NCBI GenBank assembly: GCA_944383135.1
Contig: CALWOL010000060.1
Location: forward strand, 1 to 33,439
Source: an uncultured Flavonifractor sp.
GTDB taxonomy: Bacteria > Bacillota > Clostridia > Oscillospirales > Oscillospiraceae
Direction of reading: 5' to 3'
DNA: 33,439 nucleotides
The notes below the pieces were generated by a model. The model had not been told where the DNA came from. It saw only the letters and a program-made list of their open reading frames with translations, and did no database searches. Each line of letters opens with the position of its first letter. Positions within the stretch are counted from its first letter, which is position 1. Positions 23,948-33,439 of the stretch are shown here, one piece after another. The position numbers and the translations under genes are program-made.

Positions 23948-24853
23948 TTACGCCTGCAAAAATTGTCTGACCGCTTCCTCGGCCTGGGAGAGGAAATCCC
24001 CCTCCATATCCAGCCACAGCACGTCCCTGTCCTTTTTGAACCACACCACCTGCCGCTTGGCAAAGCGTTTGATGGCCCGGCCCAGCTCGTCCTGCAAGCC
24101 CTCCAGGGTGGGGATTTTCCCGGTGAGATACCAGAGGATGTAGCGGTACTCCAGCCCCAGCCGGTCCAAAAATTCGTCGCTCACCCCGGCGGCTCGGAGG
24201 CCTGCCACCTCGTCAAGCATCCCGGCGTCGATCCGGGCCCGGAGCCGGTCGTCAATGCGCCGGCACACCACCTCCCGGGGGAAATTCACCCCCAGCAGCA
24301 GGCAGTCATACCGGGGGCACGCCCGGGGAGCCTCCCAGCCGCCGGACAGGGCCTTCTCCACCGAGCGCATCAGCCGGTGGCGGTTGTTCTCCTCCCCGCC
24401 GGTGAGGGTGACGCCGGTTTTCTCCCGCAGGAGGGCGTACAGCTCGGCGCTGCTCCTGCGCTCCAATTCCTGCCGCAGGGCGGGGTCCGGCCTGCTTTGG
24501 GAGAACTGAAACCCCTCCGTGACGGCCCGGACATACAGCCCGGTACCCCCCACCAGAATGGGGGTCTTTCCCCGGGCCAGCACATCGTCGATGGCGGCGT
24601 AGGCCGCCGGCTGGAAGTCGGCCACCGAATAGGGCTCCCCCGGCTCCACCACGTCCAGCAGGTGGTGGGGAATGCCCTCCATCTCCGCCTCCGTCACCTT
24701 GCCGGTGCCCAAATCCAGGCCCCGGTACACCTGCCGGGAGTCGGCGGAGATGACCTCGCCGTCAAACCGCTTGGCCAGCTTCACGCCCAGGCCGCTCTTG
24801 CCGCAGGCCGTGGTGCCCAGCACCACCACCAGCTTGGGCAGTCCCCCCGTCAT
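23948..24853 (-). CDS. miaA: tRNA dimethylallyltransferase
   Basis: MiaA transfers a dimethylallyl group to N6 of A37 in tRNAs reading codons that begin with U. The 301 residues show the P-loop GTTACGKS (13-20; the more usual form is GPTAVGKT). The substrate-binding run ISADSRQVYRGLDLGTGKVT (about 39-58) follows, with HHLLDVVEPGEPYSVADFQ (about 65-83) and ILVGGTGLYVRAV (about 98-110). The C-terminal KRQVVWFKKD is also typical. The ATG overlaps the stop of the upstream signal peptidase gene (ATGA), so the two are translationally coupled. The multi-hairpin element follows. Confidence 0.96.
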   Translation of the reverse strand: MTGGLPKLVVVLGTTACGKSGLGVKLAKRFDGEVISADSRQVYRGLDLGTGKVTEAEMEGIPHHLLDVVEPGEPYSVADFQPAAYAAIDDVLARGKTPILVGGTGLYVRAVTEGFQFSQSRPDPALRQELERRSSAELYALLREKTGVTLTGGEENNRHRLMRSVEKALSGGWEAPRACPRYDCLLLGVNFPREVVCRRIDDRLRARIDAGMLDEVAGLRAAGVSDEFLDRLGLEYRYILWYLTGKIPTLEGLQDELGRAIKRFAKRQVVWFKKDRDVLWLDMEGDFLSQAEEAVRQFLQA

Positions 24854-25449
24854 GCCTGCGCTCCGTGGGCAATGGCGCCGAAATCCTGGAAGGGGAGCAG
24901 CACCCAGATGGCCCGGCCCAGCACATACCGCTCGTCCACCGTGCCCAGGGTCACGTCCCGGCTGTCGGAGGAGTGGTTGCGGTTGTCCCCCATGACGAAG
25001 ATGGAGCCCTCGGGCACCAGCACGTCGGTGAGGGTATCCCCCATGGGGCGCACCATGGGCTCATTGATGTAGGGCTCATCCAGCACCACGCCGTCCACGG
25101 TGACGGTGCCGGCGTTATAGTCGATGACCACATGCTGGCCGCCGGTGGCGATGACCCGCTTGACGATGGGGCCGTCGGCGGCGTCAAACTCCTTGGTGAG
25201 CACCACCACATCCCCCTGCCTGGGGGTATAGCCGATGCTCTGGAGCAGCAGCATGTCCCCGTTGTGGAGGGTGGGCACCATGGAGCTGCCCGACACGCCG
25301 ATAATCCGCCCCACAAAGGTGAACAGCAGAATCAGCAGCACCAGGGCCGCCACCAGGGCCTGAAGCCAGAAGTACAAATCCAGCTTCAGGGAATCGCCGC
25401 CGGACAGCTCCTCTTTCTGCTCCGGCTGCTCATGTCTGTCAAGTCTCAC
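24850..25449 (-). CDS. lepB: Signal peptidase I (first of two tandem copies beside miaA)
   Basis: Membrane-anchored serine protease that removes signal peptides from exported proteins. The 199-residue product has one N-terminal helix (about 25-46), the nucleophile Ser in GSSMVPTL (Ser56), and the general-base Lys in VKRVIA (Lys97). It also has the conserved GDNRNHSSDSRDVTLG (about 154-169). This is the short Gram-positive SipS type. The start is a GTG with GGAG about 10 bases upstream. It has its own sigma-A promoter (25483-25511) and is coupled to miaA by a 4-bp overlap. It is a clear duplicate of the next gene upstream, with long near-identical stretches in both protein and DNA. Confidence 0.95.
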   Translation of the reverse strand: MRLDRHEQPEQKEELSGGDSLKLDLYFWLQALVAALVLLILLFTFVGRIIGVSGSSMVPTLHNGDMLLLQSIGYTPRQGDVVVLTKEFDAADGPIVKRVIATGGQHVVIDYNAGTVTVDGVVLDEPYINEPMVRPMGDTLTDVLVPEGSIFVMGDNRNHSSDSRDVTLGTVDERYVLGRAIWVLLPFQDFGAIAHGAQA

Positions 25450-25523: not shown

Positions 25524-26060
25524 TCACGCCGCCGGGCCGAAATTCCGGAAGGGGAACAGCACCCACACCGCCTTGCCCAGCAGATATCGCTCATCCACCG
25601 CGCCCAGGGTCACGTTCCGGCTGTCGGAGGAGTCGTTGCGGTTGTCCCCCATGACGAAGATGGAGTCCTCGGGCACCTCCACGGAGGTGAGGTGCTGATA
25701 CCAGGGCTCCTCCATCGGCCCGTTGAGGTAGGGCTCGTCCAGCACCACGCCGTCCACGGCGACGGTGCCGGCGGCGTAGTCGATGTCCACGCGCTGGCCC
25801 CCGGTGGCGATGACCCGCTTGACGATGGGGCCGTCGGCATCCTCAAACTCCTTGGTGAGCACCACAATGTCCCCCTGCCTGGGGGTATAGCCCACGCCCT
25901 GGAGCAGCAGCAGATCGCCCCCCTCCAGGGTGGGGCGCATGGAGATCCCGTCCACCACAATGATGCGCCCCAGGAAGGTGAACACCAGAATCAGCGCAAT
26001 CAGCATCGCCGCCGCCGTCCCCAGCCAGAAGTAGAGTTCTCTTTTCAGCCCCTGTCTCAT
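25524..26060 (-). CDS. lepB: Signal peptidase I (tandem copy in the yhaN operon)
   Basis: A 178-residue SipS-type signal peptidase. It has one N-terminal helix (about 10-31), the nucleophile Ser in GISMRPTL (Ser40), the Lys in VKRVIA (Lys81) and GDNRNDSSDSRNVTLG (about 136-151). All catalytic parts are intact. It lacks the 20-residue polar N-terminal extension of its neighbour and differs most in the loop after VLDEPYLNGPM, which may affect substrate choice. The ATG overlaps the stop of the yhaN-like gene (ATGA), with GGAGG eight bases upstream, so it belongs to that operon. Confidence 0.95.
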   Translation of the reverse strand: MRQGLKRELYFWLGTAAAMLIALILVFTFLGRIIVVDGISMRPTLEGGDLLLLQGVGYTPRQGDIVVLTKEFEDADGPIVKRVIATGGQRVDIDYAAGTVAVDGVVLDEPYLNGPMEEPWYQHLTSVEVPEDSIFVMGDNRNDSSDSRNVTLGAVDERYLLGKAVWVLFPFRNFGPAA

Positions 26061-28267
26061 CCTTCCATCCTCCTCTGCCAGTCGGCCTCACGGCTGTGGC
26101 AGGTGAAGAGCAGAATCTGCCGTTTCCGCCCCAGCTCCGCCAGGGTCTCCAGGGCCAGGGCCATCCGCTCGTCGTCAAAGTTGGCCAGGGCGTCGTCCAG
26201 CACCAGGGGACAGGGCTCCTCCCCCGGCAGCACCAGCTCACACACCGCCAGGCGCACCGCCAGGTAGAGCTGGTCCGCGGTGCCCTGGGACAGGGCCAGG
26301 GCCCGCCGGGGCAGCAGGCCGCCGCGCTCCTCCGCCAGGGCCTCAAACTCCCGGGTGAGGGAGACCTTGTCATATCTGCCGCCGGTGAGCTTTGCCAGCA
26401 GCTCTCCCGCCCGCCGGTTCAGGGCAGGGGAGAACCGGGCCTGAAGGCCGGTATGGGCCTGCTCCAGGGCCTCCAGGGCGGCGGTAAGGGCGTCGTACTC
26501 CCGCCGCCGCTCCTCCAGCTCCTCCAGAATGGCCTCCCGCCGGGCGGTAAGTTCCTCCCGGTCCCCCAGGGTGTTCAGCTCCCCCTGGGCCAGGGCCAGA
26601 CCGCTGCGCAGCCGGGACAGCTCTCCCTCCGCCGCCTCCAGCCGGGCGGCGGTCTCCGCGGGGTCAAACCGGGGGACTACCCCATTGTCCTCCAGGCCGT
26701 CCTCCGGCCGGGGCAGGCTGTCCGCCAGGGCCTGGGCCCCCTCCAGCTTCACCCTCGCGGTGGCCAGCCGCTGCTCCAGGTTCAGGGCCCGGGAGAGGGC
26801 GGCGGACACCCCGAAGGTGTCGGTGACAGCGGGGGCAAAGGTGTGGACCAGCTCCAGCAGGGCCCTGCGGGTATCCTCGTCCTGGGCGTTGAGCTCCGCC
26901 AGGGACTGTTCCACCGCCTCCCGGCGGCGGGCGGCCTCGGCGGCCACCACCCACCGCTCCCGGTAGGCGCTGGCCCGGGCCAGAATGTCGTCGGGGGTCT
27001 GGACTCCATACCGGGTCAGGCACTCCGCCCGGGCGGCGGCGGCCCTCTTCTTGTTCCGGGCGGCGGCGGCCAGCAGGAGGACACCCGCCGCCGCCAGCAC
27101 GCCGCAGGCCGCCGCCCCCATCCAGAGGGCGGGGAGCACGCCGGCAAAGGCCAGGGCCAGGGCGGCGGCGGCCAGCACCAGGGCGGCAATGCCGCCCCCC
27201 GTCAGGCCGCCGGTGCGGACGGTCTGCCCCGCCCGCTCCGCGTCGGCGCCGGCCTGCCGCCAGGCCTCGTCCGGGGTCAGGCCGGGGAAGAGGTCGTCGG
27301 CAGCGGCGGCTTTGGCCGCTTCCTCCGCCCCCCGGGCCTCCTCCAGCTGGCTCTCCGCCAGCTTCTGGTTGGCGTGGAGGGTGTTGAGATAGTTCAGCTC
27401 CTCCTGGGCCTTTTTCAGGGTGCCGGCGTCGGGGGGCGTTCCATAGCGGCCCAGCTCGGCCTCCAGGCTCTCCACCTGGCCTCTGGCCTGGACCAGGGCC
27501 TGCTGCCCCGCCTCCCACTTCCGCCGCCGGGCGGCCATGGCCTGGGCCAGGTGGGCCTGCCGCTCGGACAAAAGCAGCTTCTGCTCGGCCTGGAGCTTGT
27601 CCAGCTCCCGGCGGGCCTCCTGGGACAGGCGGAAGGCCTTGGCCATCCGGGCCAGAGTGCCCTCCACCTCCGCCAGCTCCCCCTCCAGGCGGGGGATGAG
27701 GCCGGTCTTGTTGTGCTGGCGGCGGTTGCGCCAGTCCCGCAGCACCCGCTCCACCTGGGTGTAGGACACGTCCTCCTCCCCGCTGGAGGCCAGGGCGGCG
27801 ATGCGGGCCTCCAGGGCGGGGGCGCCGTCAATGGCCGTTCCCCCCTGGCCCACGAAGGCGGAGCGCTCAAAGATCTCCCGGGGGGCGCCCAGGAGGGTCT
27901 CCCCCACGTTGTCTGCGGTGAGGAAGCCCACCGGCTCTCCGGTATCCGTGTACACCGCCTCAAAGCTCCCAAAGGGGGTATTGCCCCTGGGCCCCCGGCG
28001 GAGGGTGATGGCCTGGCCCTTCCATTCCAGCTCCATCACACCCTCCATAGCGGCCCCGCTCCAGGGCTGGTAGCGGTTCTTTTCCGCGATGTGGTTCTGC
28101 TTGTCCCGCTCCTTGGTGTTGATGCCGTAAAACATGGCCCGCAGGAAGGCGGACCAGGTGGACTTGCCCCCCTCGTTGGGGGCGGTGATGATGTTCAGGC
28201 CCTCCTTCAGGGTCAGCTCCCGGTGGTCCAGGCCCCCGAAGGTGGCGCGCATGGTTTTGATTTTCAT
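26057..28267 (-). CDS. YhaN/SbcC-like AAA ATPase with internal membrane hairpin
   Basis: A 736-residue SMC/Rad50-like ATPase. It has an N-terminal Walker A (APNEGGKST, 29-37), long coiled-coil arms (about 190-330 and 440-610) and a C-terminal ABC signature region (LSQGTADQLYLAVRLAV, about 655). Walker B follows in LVLDDALANFDDERM (about 688-702). Between the arms two hydrophobic segments (IAALVLAAAALALAFAGVL and the following stretch, about 365-420) form a membrane hairpin, as in B. subtilis YhaN, in place of a zinc hook. It overlaps the yhaO-like nuclease gene by 4 bp, the SbcD/SbcC-type arrangement. It is probably a membrane-linked DNA end-processing complex. The ATG at 28267 has GGGAGGA upstream; the frame is open further upstream but inside the neighbour. 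Confidence 0.88.
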   Translation of the reverse strand: MKIKTMRATFGGLDHRELTLKEGLNIITAPNEGGKSTWSAFLRAMFYGINTKERDKQNHIAEKNRYQPWSGAAMEGVMELEWKGQAITLRRGPRGNTPFGSFEAVYTDTGEPVGFLTADNVGETLLGAPREIFERSAFVGQGGTAIDGAPALEARIAALASSGEEDVSYTQVERVLRDWRNRRQHNKTGLIPRLEGELAEVEGTLARMAKAFRLSQEARRELDKLQAEQKLLLSERQAHLAQAMAARRRKWEAGQQALVQARGQVESLEAELGRYGTPPDAGTLKKAQEELNYLNTLHANQKLAESQLEEARGAEEAAKAAAADDLFPGLTPDEAWRQAGADAERAGQTVRTGGLTGGGIAALVLAAAALALAFAGVLPALWMGAAACGVLAAAGVLLLAAAARNKKRAAAARAECLTRYGVQTPDDILARASAYRERWVVAAEAARRREAVEQSLAELNAQDEDTRRALLELVHTFAPAVTDTFGVSAALSRALNLEQRLATARVKLEGAQALADSLPRPEDGLEDNGVVPRFDPAETAARLEAAEGELSRLRSGLALAQGELNTLGDREELTARREAILEELEERRREYDALTAALEALEQAHTGLQARFSPALNRRAGELLAKLTGGRYDKVSLTREFEALAEERGGLLPRRALALSQGTADQLYLAVRLAVCELVLPGEEPCPLVLDDALANFDDERMALALETLAELGRKRQILLFTCHSREADWQRRMEG

Positions 28268-29346
28268 GGGCAGGGGTCCTCCCCGTGTTCCAGGGCCGCC
28301 AGGGCAAAGCGGGCGGCCAGGTCTCGCCTCTGCTGCTCCGGCTCCCCCTTCAGCGTCCGGAGGACCAGGCCGGTGAGGCTGTCCTCCCCCGCCCGTTCCC
28401 ACAGATCCCGGAGGGGCCGGGTGTCATCCCGGAGGGTGACGCTGAAATAGCTGGGCGCCGCCAGGGCGGTGAGGGCGGCCAGGTCCGGGGCGTCAAAGCG
28501 CCGCTGGCCGGTGAGCAGAATGCGGCAGCAGTCCCCGGTGGGGGCGGCGGGCAGCACGGCCCGCAGCGCCTCCTCCCCGCTGTCCGCTCCGGTGACATCC
28601 GCCTCCACAATCTCATACCGCCGGCCGGCCAGGGGCACAAACCGGGCGGACACGCCGCCCCCGTCCGCCACCGTCACCGACAAAACGCCCTTCTCCCCCG
28701 TCTCGTCAAAGCCCCGGCCCTCGGGGCAGCCGGGGTAGGCCCAGAAGGTATCCCCCGCCTTTTGCAGGCCGGAGCAGGTGTGGATATGGCCCAGGGCCAG
28801 GTAGGTCAGGCCGCTGGCGGCAATGTCGGCCTCCCCGATGGGGCCGTACCGCCCCTGGCCCGCCGTGTCCCCGTGGAGGACCATCAGGTGGATTTTTCCG
28901 TCCCGGGGGGCGGAAAAGCCCAGGAGGGGGGAGCGGTCCGCCTGGGGGGTGGTGAAGGCCGCCCCGTGGACCACGCAGCCCAGCTCCGGCAGCTCCACCG
29001 CCTGGGGCTGCACGGCGGAGAAGATGTGTACGTTGTCCGGCCACGCCGTACCGGCGTAGACGGAGCGGGGGGCGTAGGGGTCATGGTTCCCCGGGGCGAT
29101 AAAGACCGGCACCGCCAGCTGTCCCAGGGTGCGGGCCAGGGCCTCCACCGTCTCCTGATAGGTCTCGCCCCCGTCCAGCAAATCCCCGGCCAGGAGCACC
29201 AGCTCCGCCCCCTCGCTCCGGACCAGATCGGCCAGGCGGGAGAGCAGCTGCCGCTGCTCGGCCCGCCGCTGCCGGGCCTGCTCCGGGGAGAGGGCGGCAA
29301 AGGGGGCGTCCAGGTGGAAATCCGCCCCGTGAATGAACTTCAGCAT
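28264..29346 (-). CDS. YhaO/SbcD-like metallophosphoesterase, DNA repair nuclease
   Basis: A 360-residue calcineurin-type phosphoesterase of the Mre11/SbcD group. Metal-binding motifs are complete: GADFHLD (Asp9, His11), LLAGDLLDGG (Asp55), APGNHDPY (Asn87, His88), VLHGD (His158) and LGHIHT (His187, His189). The C-terminal part should contact the ATPase encoded next (YhaN-like, 4-bp overlap). Such pairs act as ATP-dependent nucleases on DNA ends. It starts 15 bases after ymdB with AAAGGA about 10 bases before the ATG. Confidence 0.92.
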   Translation of the reverse strand: MLKFIHGADFHLDAPFAALSPEQARQRRAEQRQLLSRLADLVRSEGAELVLLAGDLLDGGETYQETVEALARTLGQLAVPVFIAPGNHDPYAPRSVYAGTAWPDNVHIFSAVQPQAVELPELGCVVHGAAFTTPQADRSPLLGFSAPRDGKIHLMVLHGDTAGQGRYGPIGEADIAASGLTYLALGHIHTCSGLQKAGDTFWAYPGCPEGRGFDETGEKGVLSVTVADGGGVSARFVPLAGRRYEIVEADVTGADSGEEALRAVLPAAPTGDCCRILLTGQRRFDAPDLAALTALAAPSYFSVTLRDDTRPLRDLWERAGEDSLTGLVLRTLKGEPEQQRRDLAARFALAALEHGEDPCP

Positions 29347-29361
29347 CGTTTTGGTTTCCTT

Positions 29362-30144
29362 TCAGTCGTGGAGATCCAGCCGCTCCACTTCCAGGCAGCG
29401 GCGGGTATCGGTATCTATGGAGAACACCACGCTCTCCAGCTTGCAGGGGCCGTCGGCGGGCTCAAACCGCCGGGGCAGCCCCCCCAGGAAGCGGTTGATG
29501 GCCTGCTCGGGCCGGATGCCCAGCACGCTGCGGGCGGGGCCGGTCATGCCCAGGTCGGTGACAAAGCCGGTGCCCTTGGGCAGAATCTGCCCGTCGGCGG
29601 TGGGCACGTGGGTGTGGGTGCCCCACAGGGCCTGCACCCGGCCGTCCAGATAATAGCCCAGGGCCCCCTTCTCGCTGGTGGCCTCGGCGTGGAAATCCAC
29701 CACAATCACGTCGGCCCCCTCCATCCGCTTGAGCACCCGGTCGGCGGTGGTAAAGGGGTTTTCAAAGTTGCTGTCCATCTCGCACCGGCCGATGAGGTTG
29801 ATCACCCCAATGCGCAGGCCGCCGGGGCCGTCATACACCCCCCAGCCCCGGCCGGGCACCCGGTTGGTGTAGTTGGCGGGGCGCAGGGTATAGCGGTCAT
29901 CCTCCAGAAAATCGGCAATCTGGATGCGGTTCCAGGTGTGGTTGCCCAGAGTGACCACGTCCGCCCCGGCGTCAAAGATCTCCCGGGCCTGCCGGGGCAG
30001 GATGCCCACCCCGGAGGCGTTCTCTCCGTTGACCACAGTGAAGTGGATGCTTTTCAGCTGCTTCAGCTGCCGCAGGTGGCGGTTCAGGCAGTCCAGACCG
30101 CCGTCCCCCACCACGTCGCCTACCGCCAGGATATTGAGAATCAT
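29362..30144 (-). CDS. ymdB: YmdB-type metallophosphoesterase
   Basis: YmdB-family enzymes (TIGR00282) are cytosolic phosphodiesterases that cleave 2',3'-cyclic AMP and other cyclic nucleotides and influence biofilm and motility choices in B. subtilis. The 260 residues carry the metal ligands in VGDVVGDGG (about 8-16), VNGENASG (about 38-45), TLGNHTWN (about 65-72), VDFHAEATSEK (about 150) and WGTHTHVPTAD (about 175). Length is typical. GGGAGG sits six bases before the ATG, and a strong sigma-A promoter (30177-30205) lies just upstream, so it heads the operon ymdB > yhaO-like > yhaN-like > lepB. Confidence 0.95.
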   Translation of the reverse strand: MILNILAVGDVVGDGGLDCLNRHLRQLKQLKSIHFTVVNGENASGVGILPRQAREIFDAGADVVTLGNHTWNRIQIADFLEDDRYTLRPANYTNRVPGRGWGVYDGPGGLRIGVINLIGRCEMDSNFENPFTTADRVLKRMEGADVIVVDFHAEATSEKGALGYYLDGRVQALWGTHTHVPTADGQILPKGTGFVTDLGMTGPARSVLGIRPEQAINRFLGGLPRRFEPADGPCKLESVVFSIDTDTRRCLEVERLDLHD

Positions 30145-30176
30145 AATCTGCCTCCCTCTCTTCCTAAACGAAGTCT

Positions 30177-30205
30177 ATTATATGTGATTTTTCTCCAAAG
30201 GGCAA
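30177..30205 (-). promoter_or_regulatory. Sigma-A promoter of the ymdB operon
   Basis: On the minus strand TTGCCC (30200-30205), a 17-bp spacer and a perfect TATAAT (30177-30182) lie about 33 bases before the ymdB ATG. It is divergent from the lipoprotein cluster that begins at 30297. Confidence 0.8.
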
Positions 30206-30230
30206 TTGTAGTTTGTTGTTTCCAAATCGG

Positions 30231-30291
30231 AACCGCTTCCGTAACCCTTTGTACCAATCCCCGTGGTAGGATAGAGACGGAAAGGAAGGTT
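30231..30291 (+). promoter_or_regulatory. Structured leader / regulatory element, copy 1
   Basis: An imperfect inverted repeat pairs AACC (30231-30234) and TTCCGT (30237-30242) with ACGGAA (30277-30282) and GGTT (30288-30291). The Shine-Dalgarno AGGAAGG lies inside the right arm. Within it TACC (30252-30255) pairs with GGTA (30265-30268) around a 9-base loop. The TTTGTACC...TGGTA..ATAG core and its distance to the ATG are the same as in copy 2 at 32745. It may be an RNA that hides the ribosome-binding site, or a promoter/operator; no ordinary sigma-A promoter is seen upstream. Confidence 0.5.
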
Positions 30292-30296
30292 TTCGC

Positions 30297-31553
30297 ATGA
30301 AACGCGCCGCAATTTGCCTGATGCTCCTGCTGTGTCTTGCCGCCTGCGGGCAGACAAGAACGGTCTCGCAGGTGCTCTCCACTCCCGCTTCTTCCCCGTC
30401 CGCCGCCCCCACGCCGGAGTCCACGCCGGAGCCCACGCCCACGCCGGAGCCGCTGATCACCCGGGAGGAGCTGGAGCAGGTCATCGCCCGGGCGGGGGAG
30501 GACTGGCACGCCATGGGCGTCCAGGCCGCGGTCATTCAGGAGGGAGCCGTCATCGCCCAGGCCGCCTGGGGCTGGGCGGTGGACGGGCAGGTGCCCATGA
30601 CCACGGAGCACAAGCTGCGCTGCGCCTCCCTCACCAAGCTGGCCACCGCCCTCGCCGCCGGCGTGCTGATGGAGCAGGGAATCATTACCCCCCAGAGCGA
30701 CCTGTCCCGCTGCTGGGGGGTGACGGTGCGCAATCCCGCCTACCCCGACTGTCCCATTACGGTGGACATGCTCCTCACCCACACCTCCTCCCTCACCGAC
30801 GCCAGCGGCAGCCTGGCCGCCCTGAAGGGGACCGCCGCCCGGCAGCGGCTGGCGGGCGGCGGCTTTCAGGGGGTGGAGCCGGGGGCGCTGGAGAGCTGGT
30901 GCTACAACAACTACGGCTTCGCCGTGCTGGGCATGAGCCTGGAGCTGGCTTCGGGCAGGATGCTGGACGCGGTACTGGGGGAGGCCATTCTCACCCCCCT
31001 GGGCATCGACGCCGCCTTTGAGGCGGGCAGCGTGGCCGACACCAGCCTGCTCTGCCCCCTGTACCAGGGGGACACCATAACCCGTCCGGTGGCGGAGCAG
31101 CTGGGCTACGTGCGGGTGGAGCAGCCGGGCTACCGGGGCAACTTCTATGCCGGGGGCTTCACCTGCAGCGCCGGGGACATGGCCAGGCTGGCCGCTCTGC
31201 TGGCGGCGGACGGCCAATATCAGGGGGAACAGCTCCTCGCCCCGGAGACGGTGGCCTATCTGGAGCAGCCCCTGGGGGAGGTGCCCGGCGGCTTTCTCCA
31301 GTGCCGGCCCCTGCGCTGCCGGACGGAGCTGTACGGCAGGGACCGCATCTACTATCACACCGGCTCGGCCTACGGCTTTTATGGCCTGGTGTCCTACGAC
31401 CCGGACACCGGGGACGGCGTGGCCGTCTTTACCACCGGAGCGGCGGGAGACACGGACGATTGGGGGATCTATCAGGTGTGCAGCCAAATTGCCCGGGCGG
31501 TCTACCGGCCGGAGGAAAGGGAGGCGCTCGCATGCACCGCTTCGCAGCCCTGA
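30297..31553 (+). CDS. Lipoprotein beta-lactamase-like serine hydrolase
   Basis: A 418-residue predicted lipoprotein. The signal peptide ends in the lipobox LAAC (Cys17), followed by a Pro/Thr/Ser-rich linker (about 25-52). The rest is a class C beta-lactamase/DD-peptidase fold. The nucleophile motif is SLTK (Ser111, Lys114), the second motif Tyr-Asn-Asn starts at 203, and HTG at 354 replaces KTG, as in esterase/AmpH-like members. LLTHTSSL (about 159) is also typical. It may act on peptidoglycan peptides or esters outside the membrane; a true beta-lactamase is less likely. It is preceded by structured leader copy 1 and overlaps the CapA-like gene by 22 bp, so the two form an operon. Confidence 0.9.
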   Translation: MKRAAICLMLLLCLAACGQTRTVSQVLSTPASSPSAAPTPESTPEPTPTPEPLITREELEQVIARAGEDWHAMGVQAAVIQEGAVIAQAAWGWAVDGQVPMTTEHKLRCASLTKLATALAAGVLMEQGIITPQSDLSRCWGVTVRNPAYPDCPITVDMLLTHTSSLTDASGSLAALKGTAARQRLAGGGFQGVEPGALESWCYNNYGFAVLGMSLELASGRMLDAVLGEAILTPLGIDAAFEAGSVADTSLLCPLYQGDTITRPVAEQLGYVRVEQPGYRGNFYAGGFTCSAGDMARLAALLAADGQYQGEQLLAPETVAYLEQPLGEVPGGFLQCRPLRCRTELYGRDRIYYHTGSAYGFYGLVSYDPDTGDGVAVFTTGAAGDTDDWGIYQVCSQIARAVYRPEEREALACTASQP

Positions 31554-32713
31554 CCGCCGCCCTGCTGCTGGCGGCGCTGGCGGGATGCGCCGCCCCGGCC
31601 CCTGTTTCCACTCCCGCGCCGGAGGCCACTCCCACCCCCTCCCCCACGCCGGAGCCCTCCCCTCCGCCCCCCACGGTGGCCACCCTGGCGGTGTGCGGGG
31701 ACGTGATGACCCACCTTCCGGTGACCAACGACGCCTGGGACGAGGAGCAGGGCATTTACGATTACACCCCCATTTTTGAGCAGGCCCGGCCCTATGTGGA
31801 GGGGGCGGACTACGCCGTGGCCAATCTGGAGACCACCCTCTCCCCCCAGGGACCCTACTCCGGCTATCCCGCCTTCCGCGCCCCGGCGGCGCTGGCGGAG
31901 GATTTGAAGGAGGTGGGCTTTGATTTGCTGCTCACCGCCAACAACCACTGCCTGGACAAGGGCTATGACGGGCTGGTCTCCACCCTGGAGGCCCTGGATG
32001 AGGCCGGGCTGGCCCATGTGGGCACCTACGCCTCGGCGGAGGAGGCCGCCTCCCCCGTTTCTCTGGCCGATGTGGGGGGCATCACGGTGGCCTTTCTGGG
32101 CTACACCTACGGCACCAACGGCATCCCCCTGCCCCAGGGGAAGGAGTGGGCGGTGAACCTGTTCCTCACCGACTACCTCACCACCCTCTCCACCCCGGAC
32201 ACGGAAAAGCTGGAGGCCGACCTGGCCGCCGCCCGGTCCATGGAGCCCGACCTCATCGCCGTGATGATCCACTGGGGAGTGGAGTACCGCACCGAGCAGA
32301 ACAGCTACCAGGAGGAGATGGCCGACCTGCTCATTGCAAACGGAGCCGACCTGGTGCTGGGCGGCCACTCCCATGTGCCCCAGCCTATGGAGACGCGCAC
32401 CGTCACCGGCTGGGACGGCTCCCAGCGCACCGGCTTCGTGTGCTACTCCCTGGGCAACTTCATTTCCTCCCAGGTAGACCCTCTCACCGACACCACCGCC
32501 GCCCTCACTCTGGAGCTGACGAGGGACAACGAGACGGGCGAGACTGCCGTCACCGGCTGGTCTTATGTCCCCATGCTGATGGTGCGGCGGAATGGGACGG
32601 AGCGGGTCTTTACCCTTACCGACGCCTCCGTCATCCCCGCCGGCGCGGACGGCTCCCTTGTCCAGTGCCTGGAAGAAGCAAAGGAAAATTGTCTGGAAAT
32701 TTTCGGTTTTTAA
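31532..32713 (+). CDS. Lipoprotein CapA/PgsA-family metallophosphatase-like protein
   Basis: A 393-residue predicted lipoprotein: lipobox LAGC (Cys19), Pro-rich linker (about 21-47), then a PGA_cap/CapA domain. Seen are VCGDVMTHLP (about 54-63), ANLETTLSPQGPYSGYPAFR (about 99-118), LLTANNHCLDKG (about 140), IHWGVEY (about 246) and GGHSHVPQPME (about 277). These are the metal-site motifs shared with calcineurin-like phosphatases. CapA proteins take part in poly-gamma-glutamate capsule making in Bacillus, but no pgsB/pgsC-like genes are here, so a general cell-envelope role is safer. The ATG at 31532 has GGGAGG seven bases upstream and lies inside the end of the hydrolase gene. Confidence 0.92.
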   Translation: MHRFAALTAALLLAALAGCAAPAPVSTPAPEATPTPSPTPEPSPPPPTVATLAVCGDVMTHLPVTNDAWDEEQGIYDYTPIFEQARPYVEGADYAVANLETTLSPQGPYSGYPAFRAPAALAEDLKEVGFDLLLTANNHCLDKGYDGLVSTLEALDEAGLAHVGTYASAEEAASPVSLADVGGITVAFLGYTYGTNGIPLPQGKEWAVNLFLTDYLTTLSTPDTEKLEADLAAARSMEPDLIAVMIHWGVEYRTEQNSYQEEMADLLIANGADLVLGGHSHVPQPMETRTVTGWDGSQRTGFVCYSLGNFISSQVDPLTDTTAALTLELTRDNETGETAVTGWSYVPMLMVRRNGTERVFTLTDASVIPAGADGSLVQCLEEAKENCLEIFGF

Positions 32714-32744
32714 TTCTTTTCGTAGCTTTTTGCCTCTGAATTGT

Positions 32745-32805
32745 AACCTCCTTTGTCACTCTTTGTACCGATATCCATGGTACCATAGGGGTGACAAAGG
32801 AGGTT
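32745..32805 (+). promoter_or_regulatory. Structured leader / regulatory element, copy 2
   Basis: A perfect 15-bp inverted repeat, AACCTCCTTTGTCAC (32745-32759) with GTGACAAAGGAGGTT (32791-32805), contains the Shine-Dalgarno AAAGGAGG in its right arm. Inside, GTACC (32765-32769) pairs with GGTAC (32779-32783) around a 9-base loop. The core and its spacing to the ATG match copy 1, while the outer arms differ yet stay complementary. The T-run after the right arm is only four bases, so it is unlikely to be a terminator for the CapA-like gene alone. Confidence 0.62.
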
Positions 32806-32810
32806 TTATT

Positions 32811-33439
32811 ATGAAGCGCATACTTCCGGCTGCCCTTGCCTTGCTGCTCCTGGCTGGCTGTGCAAAACAGGCTCCGACCCCCGCCAGTCCCTCACCGGCG
32901 GCAGAGACCCGTCCCCTGACCCAGGAGGAGATAGACCGGGTCAACGAGGCCTTCCTCTCCCACATGGAGCGGGACGGCGTCACCTACGCCACGCCGGTGA
33001 GCGGGTTCTTCACCAGCTACTATGACGATGTGACCCAGCTGGACTTCTTCGACTTCCTCTACTACTTCCCCGGCGACGGCACCCTGGGGGAGGAAGACCA
33101 GGCGGAGTATGCCGCCCTGGCCGCCCTGCCCGACTTCCCCTACCGGGACGAGGTGGACACCCTGGGCTGGGATTCCCCGGAGGACCTGCCCGTGCCCACC
33201 CACCGCATCCCCCGCGCCTCGGTGGACGAGGCCCTGGAGCGGTACGCCGGCATCACCGCCGCCGACCTGGCGGACACCTCCGGCGTGCCCTATTCGGAGG
33301 AATACGACGCCTGGTACACTTTCTCCAGCGACTTCGGCCCCGGAACCTTTGTGTGCGCCGGCGGCCAGGTGGACGAGGAGGCCGGCGCCGCCCTGCTGTG
33401 GACGGACACGCGGGGGGACGGCACCCGGGTGGAGCTGCT
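32811..33439 (+). CDS. Lipoprotein of unknown function, cut by the window end
   Basis: An open frame of 209 codons runs off the window. The signal peptide (MKRILPAALALLLLAGC) has the lipobox LAGC with Cys17. A short Pro/Ser linker follows, then a soluble domain beginning LTQEEIDRVNEAFLS (about 38-52). Recognisable patches are SGFFTSYYDDVTQLDFFDFL, PVPTHRIPRASVDEALERYA, AGITAADLAD and EEYDAWYTFSSDFGPGTF. I recall similar Oscillospirales proteins but know no named family or function. AAAGGAGG precedes the ATG by seven bases and lies in the right arm of leader copy 2. Like the two genes before it, it belongs to a run of P/T-linker lipoproteins. Confidence 0.85.
   Translation, partial: MKRILPAALALLLLAGCAKQAPTPASPSPAAETRPLTQEEIDRVNEAFLSHMERDGVTYATPVSGFFTSYYDDVTQLDFFDFLYYFPGDGTLGEEDQAEYAALAALPDFPYRDEVDTLGWDSPEDLPVPTHRIPRASVDEALERYAGITAADLADTSGVPYSEEYDAWYTFSSDFGPGTFVCAGGQVDEEAGAALLWTDTRGDGTRVEL

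Follow-up and report, generated by a model that had tools for sequence, protein, structure and literature searches.

Putative response-regulator promoters with direct-repeat arrays upstream of Flavonifractor lipoprotein genes, one with a nested hairpin

Two lipoprotein genes near the end of a contig from an uncultured Flavonifractor sp. (assembly GCA_944383135.1, contig CALWOL010000060.1) are preceded by leaders that share the core TTTGTACC (30248-30255 and 32762-32769). Does this core act in the RNA, as part of a fold that hides the ribosome-binding site, or in the DNA, as part of a promoter? The window analyzed here is the whole contig of 33,439 nt, and the draft genome amounts to 2.3 Mb in 180 contigs. 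The original prediction favored RNA structure, with the Shine-Dalgarno sequence inside an inverted repeat; its alternative was an unusual promoter, perhaps for an extracytoplasmic function (ECF) sigma factor, flanked by operator arms. Several of its observations hold: TACC-N9-GGTA and ATAG are equidistant from the two ATG codons (30297 and 32811), the right outer arm begins exactly 20 nt 5' of the ATG in both leaders, and a consensus scan reveals no consensus sigma-A promoter on the + strand near either. Both driven genes encode lipoproteins (lipobox by eye, with an LPAM_1 match for the second), as does the capA gene between them. We put at roughly 75% the probability that both leaders are extended -10 promoters of the primary sigma factor, lacking a recognizable -35 and controlled by a response regulator of the OmpR/PhoB type, most likely an activator. 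This account of promoter, regulator and hairpin is drawn from sequence.

Repeat arrays and an extended -10

A sequence-only profile built from 16 leaders was run on 20 Flavonifractor genomes (labeled G0xx), a strong site being one with an E-value below 1e-11. The search returned 17 strong sites in 15 of the 20 genomes, two each in the window's genome and G018 and one each in the other 13; 16 of these had built the model, which leaves the G016 site as the one independent find. In all 17 driven genes, inspection by eye shows a lipobox-like signal peptide at the start. Six copies of the core without mismatch are present in five of the 20 genomes, and allowing up to two mismatches gives 16 rows vs. 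six control matches, some of the rows being clearly chance; the shared core is itself real and beyond chance. An exact pattern scan of one genome per species (84,980 species) found nine loci, eight in Flavonifractor and one labeled Clostridiales bacterium. A family-level search of 300 genomes, six genus members among them, gave six good sites in five genomes, all Flavonifractor, and outside the genus four 3-mismatch matches vs. five in the control, which looks like chance.

The leaders align almost without gaps and reveal a row of TTGTAACC-like units, of which TTTGTACC is the last (Table 1); these direct repeats 5' of the core go beyond what the original prediction described. Units matching at six or more of the eight positions number 58 in the 17 leaders vs. 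a mean of 13.4 (standard deviation 3.3, maximum 26) in 500 shuffles, a significance that is overstated because the leaders are kin. Counted from the -10 hexamer, a unit is present at -28 and at -40 in all 17 leaders, at -51 in 14, and at -61 in seven (15 when at least five matches are allowed), and the last unit reads TGTACC in 14. The spacing is 10, 11, 12, and 10 nt, and none of the 17 has a unit at the expected -35 place, about -23 from the -10. The leaders have the arrangement looked for in OmpR/PhoB-type control, head-to-tail repeats about one helical turn apart 5' of a promoter.

The right half of the core, TGGTAnnATAG, has the sequence of an extended -10, and TGnTAnnAT fits 17/17 leaders; transcription would be expected to start near 30279 in leader 1 and 32793 in leader 2. 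The exact pattern of a unit, N17 and the extended -10 has 14 matches in 13 of the 20 genomes and none in the control, comprising 12 array promoters, one beta-lactamase promoter and, in the window's genome, one that precedes a PstS-like gene. Homologs of the beta-lactamase-domain gene are informative here. The extended -10 is kept 5' of the gene, as TGGTA or TGATA, in eight of ten, a unit stands at exactly -28 in six, the full array is found in only two, and the hairpin is absent. Of the two without TGGTA or TGATA, one has TGTTACAAT; in the other, whose match falls short of the gene start, the stretch read contains no element of this kind. That most homologs keep the extended -10 although only two have the full array speaks for this reading of the right half. 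The core is best understood as a promoter, and an RNA switch is not supported.

The promoter of a secreted protein with a PstS-like domain (L149 = G000:C17:7233-7268; L146, L147, L150, L151) combines TTGTTACC or TTGTAACC units with an extended -10, and by its sequence resembles a further member of this class. A divergent ymdB promoter of sigma-A type (TTGCCC, 17 nt, TATAAT; 30177-30205) adjoins the leader 1 array, so that the two stand back to back.

Table 1. Coordinates of the leader elements and of the genes that they precede or follow
Feature	Position	Strand	Basis or remark
Direct-repeat array, leader 1	30206-30255	+	17-leader alignment, unit scoring vs. TTGTAACC
Unit TTGTAGTT, leader 1	30206-30213	+	5/8 match to TTGTAACC
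Unit TTGTTTCC, leader 1	30216-30223	+	6/8 match to TTGTAACC
Unit TCGGAACC, leader 1	30227-30234	+	6/8 match to TTGTAACC
Unit CCGTAACC, leader 1	30239-30246	+	6/8 match to TTGTAACC
Last unit TTGTACC, leader 1	30249-30255	+	
Outer arms of the original prediction, leader 1 (30237-30242 with 30277-30282)	30237-30282	+	chance-level 6-bp match
Putative extended -10, leader 1, TGG TAGGAT	30264-30272	+	pattern in 17/17 leaders, beta-lactamase homologs
Lipoprotein gene, Beta-lactamase (PF00144) domain	30297-31553	+	domain search, lipobox by eye
capA-like lipoprotein gene, PGA_cap (PF09587) domain	31532-32713	+	overlaps preceding beta-lactamase-domain gene
Direct-repeat array, leader 2	32720-32769	+	17-leader alignment, unit scoring vs. 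TTGTAACC
Unit TCGTAGCT, leader 2	32720-32727	+	5/8 match to TTGTAACC
Unit TTGCCTCT, leader 2	32730-32737	+	4/8 match to TTGTAACC
Unit TTGTAACC, leader 2	32741-32748	+	8/8 match
Unit TTGTCACT, leader 2	32753-32760	+	6/8 match to TTGTAACC
Last unit TTGTACC, leader 2	32763-32769	+	
Perfect 15-bp inverted repeat, leader 2 (32745-32759 with 32791-32805)	32745-32805	+	right arm holds Shine-Dalgarno
Putative extended -10, leader 2, TGG TACCAT	32778-32786	+	leader alignment
Lipoprotein gene, family not recognized, 5' part only	32811-33439	+	LPAM_1 match; cut by contig end

Could TTTGTACC instead be the -35 of a promoter for an ECF or other alternative sigma factor? The absence of a consensus -35 would suit such a factor, and some ECF factors use TGTAAC-like -35 elements. 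The spacing between -35 and -10 at ECF promoters is fixed, however, at about 16-17 nt, whereas here the gap to the -10 hexamer is 11 nt from TTGTACC and 20 nt from the next unit, neither of which is a normal distance. There are moreover several units rather than one, the core unit is missing in G014 and G002 with array and -10 kept, and related promoters have sigma-A-like -10s, e.g., TGGTAAAAT and TGGTATAAT. An alternative sigma factor is consequently very improbable. The alternative that the original prediction had named, an unusual promoter with operator sequence, holds in outline, but its operator is a direct-repeat array, not a pair of inverted arms, and its -10 appears to be of the extended sigma-A type, not ECF.

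Computation establishes the array with its spacing, the -10, the conservation of these elements and the absence of covariation described below; the class of regulator, activation and the start sites are inferred. A regulator of the OmpR/PhoB type would bind the head-to-tail TTGTAACC-like units, from -61 to -18 5' of the -10, and once bound would substitute for the -35. Transcription would start about 7 nt after the -10, within the right arm, and the resulting leader, about 17 nt long, would hold little beyond the Shine-Dalgarno sequence. With such a start the left arm would lie outside the promoter's own mRNA, and the arms could not pair in it.

Covariation and the hairpin of leader 2

The case for RNA structure rested on outer arms that differ between the leaders while staying complementary. 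In leader 2 they are complementary over an even longer stretch than claimed, 15 bp without a flaw, which 0/400 shuffles reach, and the z-score of the fold is -6.48 or -5.03 according to which of two stretches is taken; this hairpin is real. The 6 bp of leader 1, in contrast, are matched by 152/400 shuffles, and its fold (z = -0.06 or 0.81, again by stretch) is no better than chance. The arms are also in different registers: leader 1 pairs 30242 with 30277 and leader 2 pairs 32759 with 32791, and because the left arms are offset by 3 nt when the cores are aligned, the change between them is not covariation at homologous positions.

The comparison with relatives, which the original prediction had proposed as its own check, came out against an RNA switch. 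Across 16 aligned leaders the named pairs are paired in 69.3% of cases vs. 68.7% in shuffles (85/500 as high), and the covariation score is 0.050 vs. 0.049 (312/500 as high), so no conserved covarying structure of the kind expected of a cis-regulatory RNA was detected in this alignment. When the partner strand is slid along, the paired percentage falls, as expected when one of the sequences itself supplied the structure. In the register of leader 2 the outer stem is complete (15/15 pairs) in three leaders, has 14 pairs in two more and only 5-8 in the other 11; within the clade of five, the 15 pairs contain one wobble-keeping change, one break and no compensatory change. Rfam gave nothing above threshold in 28000-33439, only sub-threshold matches. 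A switch would mean that both leaders are transcribed in full and that a conserved stem masks or exposes the ribosome-binding site on a cue from a ligand, a protein or temperature. This reading could draw on the strong leader 2 stem that covers the Shine-Dalgarno sequence, on its 12-17 bp in five leaders of one clade and on the inner TACC/GGTA pairs, which are kept in most leaders. It is nonetheless very unlikely, given the missing covariation, the poor outer stem in 11/16 leaders, the unremarkable folding of leader 1, the lack of an Rfam family and the fact that repeats and -10 account for the conserved bases. A plausible RNA-switch call was in this case wrong: two leaders seem to covary though one has a chance 6-bp match.

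What, then, is the role of the leader 2 stem? A hairpin of 12-17 bp is present in five leaders (window leader 2, G018, G013, G004, and G009) vs. 5-7 bp in the other 12, with fold energies of -36.6 to -42.2 vs. -12.8 to -23.4 kcal/mol. All five follow a co-directional frame whose stop lies at most about 20 nt from the array start and for which no terminator was found; Pfam identifies this preceding gene as capA in the window and in G004, clustering does so in G013, and its position suggests the same in G018 and G009. The hairpin is carried by five of the six leaders behind such an adjoining, terminator-less frame and by 0/11 of the others. The exception is G017, where neither stem nor terminator was found; in G003, too, neither terminator nor hairpin was found. 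An intrinsic terminator stands just 5' of the leader in G001, G007, G008, G010, and G016, and the gene before that of G010 is mnmE by Pfam. The terminator scan took loops of 3-8 only, and the leader 2 hairpin is not in its list.

As a separate proposal, the stem added in the leader 2 clade may act on read-through RNA only, folding the transcript of the upstream gene over the Shine-Dalgarno sequence, which is how T4 gene e operates, or terminating it, the stem being followed by TTATTATG. Tentatively, and with rather less than even odds, we suggest that the spacer between regulator repeats (AACC-TCC-TTTGTCAC) has come to complement the Shine-Dalgarno sequence in this clade, so that one stretch would serve as operator and promoter and also supply the 5' arm of a hairpin (12-17 bp) silencing or terminating read-through from the capA operon. 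The lipoprotein would then be made only from its own promoter, in a chromosomal counterpart of phage T4 gene e that replaces the terminator of other species. If true, this would be an economical insulation of neighboring genes that needs no separate terminator. The five leaders are orthologs from a single clade, so that the association of the hairpin with a missing terminator amounts to about one evolutionary event, and for this reason, and because G017 has neither stem nor terminator, insulation stays a proposal.

Candidate regulators

The class of regulator is assigned with fair confidence, and within it WalR (YycF) is the leading candidate and the first to test, though we judge its chances to be rather less than even. 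It leads because exact TTGTAACC-N3-TTGTAACC is found at hydrolase genes and a YycF-like regulator in every genome. The available portion of PMC9210968 gives the Bacillus subtilis WalR box as TGTWAH-N5-TGTWAH, with a looser form TGTNDH-N5-BKBWRN, and that of PMC10746227 gives TGTHH-N6-WGTNDD for Staphylococcus aureus. The strict B. subtilis box occurs with one mismatch in three of the 17 arrays (G006, G014, and G002), the looser form in six, leader 1 included and leader 2 not, and the S. aureus consensus in none.

Elsewhere in the genus, TTGTAACC-N3-TTGTAACC, which contains the WalR box, has 51 matches with at most two mismatches in 19 of the 20 genomes vs. five in the control, and 18 without mismatch in 15. 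Among 30 such loci read, all 17 zero-mismatch ones (L170-L174, L176-L178, L180, L182-L184, L186-L188, L190, and L193) face a gene for a hydrolase-like protein; the one member scanned is secreted, with Cu_amine_oxidN1 and Hydrolase_2 (Cell Wall Hydrolase, PF07486) domains. Nine more face, or share the flanks of, a protein of 96-100 aa without a Pfam match, and the remaining four are probably chance matches. At the hydrolase-like and the 96-100-aa genes alike, the box lies over TACAAT on the opposite strand, which by its sequence is read as a -10. The window's draft genome has boxes of the 96-aa kind only, with one and two mismatches. Another conserved box, CTGTAACCAAATTGTAACA with its close variants, lies over the putative -10 of the 96-100-aa protein (L179, L181, L191, L197, L198, and L199).

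One YycF-like regulator is encoded in each of the 20 genomes. Its best NCBIfam model is YycF at 304 bits, below the curated 340, with the next best at 231 (6/18 regulator matches scanned), and a kinase gene with HAMP and HisKA domains lies downstream. A WalR/WalK pair, as sought for promoters of a WalR regulon, is thus present. A literature search found no paper on WalR in Flavonifractor, and the texts containing both words are by title about diet and gut microbiota. Lipoproteins with upstream arrays, together with the cell wall hydrolase and the 96-aa protein, whose boxes overlie the -10, would make up a testable regulon in Flavonifractor.

Phosphate control by PhoB was set aside as the pstS promoters carry another repeat. 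In the accessible text of PMC4415409, PhoB-type regulators bind head-to-tail repeats of about 11 nt 5' of the promoter and contact a sigma subunit, and the arrays, some with CTGTCAC-like units, could on that ground be Pho boxes. The pstS promoters of the genus instead have CTTTACA direct repeats in 12 of the 18 printed (L128-L132, L136, L137, and L140-L144), the other six having a wrongly chosen start so that the promoter is not seen. These repeats are probably the Pho boxes of Flavonifractor, array-driven genes are not recognized phosphate genes, and a Pho box at the leaders is extremely improbable.

Several points weigh against regulated extended -10 promoters of this kind. Besides the kinship of the leaders, the window's two have weak units, leader 2 only two with at least 6/8, unit spacing is irregular, and neither fits the exact unit-N17-extended -10 pattern. 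The promoter alone leaves unexplained a leader 2 stem far beyond chance. For WalR in particular, the strict B. subtilis box is found in 0/17 arrays, and the window leaders are three mismatches from it, no better than shuffles (130 and 156 of 200). As to the sense of control, S. aureus WalR sites 5' of the -35 activate and those between or 3' of -35 and -10 repress, as far as the available text of PMC10746227 goes, and the last unit lies between these positions, so that by analogy repression is possible. A repressor, or a regulator of another family, bound to the array at a sigma-A promoter would agree with units that extend to -12 from the -10, near the polymerase site, and a multimeric repressor could occupy such repeats. 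We consider it unlikely, as helically spaced head-to-tail repeats at a promoter without a -35 fit an OmpR/PhoB-type activator better, to judge from the accessible part of PMC4415409.

Neighboring genes and known systems

The window ends within the second lipoprotein gene at an assembly break: its last 127 nt (33313-33439) overlap exactly with contig C97, where the frame continues. Predicted structures of both lipoprotein families are poor, with a mean predicted local distance difference test (pLDDT) score of 58.0 and 37.8. In four genomes (L112, L114, L117, and L119) a second lipoprotein start lies directly 3' of the first array-driven lipoprotein gene, so that an array locus can, by its gene order, be a two-lipoprotein operon. 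A controlling inverted repeat of chaperone expression (CIRCE)-like element (TTAGCACTC-N9-GAGTGCTAA) stands between array-driven lipoprotein genes and the next gene at nine loci (L111-L113, L115, L116, L118, L120, L121, and L123), and that gene is htpG by Pfam in L116. No regulator gene was found among the gene neighbors, for which a simple gene caller often picked the wrong strand and only some genes were Pfam-tested. The window also has two adjacent signal peptidase (PF10502) genes at 24850-25449 and 25524-26060.

The control described here is probably for the most part ordinary, a regulatory protein binding short repeated sites at both lipoprotein promoters, and the promoters belong to the already known response-regulator type with repeat arrays, plus one curious nested hairpin. 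Pho-box promoters (PhoB/PhoP) are alike in their head-to-tail repeats of about 11 nt 5' of the promoter, but the array unit differs from the CTTTACA at Flavonifractor's own pstS promoters. The WalR (YycF/VicR) regulon of Bacillota shares TGTAAC-like direct repeats and targets that include cell-envelope and exported proteins, and the exact boxes at cell-wall-hydrolase genes and the single YycF-like regulator per Flavonifractor genome resemble it, whereas the arrays are five degenerate units spaced 10/11/12/10 nt rather than one TGTWAH-N5-TGTWAH, and WalR is a candidate regulator for them. For the hairpin, the nearest likeness is the leader of phage T4 gene e (lysozyme), where, in the available part of PMC3014915, promoters are situated inside the hairpin region, the Shine-Dalgarno sequence is masked in long transcripts, and translation proceeds from short ones, which have no 5' arm. 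With its predicted start, leader 2 would have the same layout if its -10 is rightly assigned; unlike gene e it is chromosomal, has a repeat-array promoter and occurs in one clade only, and the role suggested for it here is proposed from sequence.

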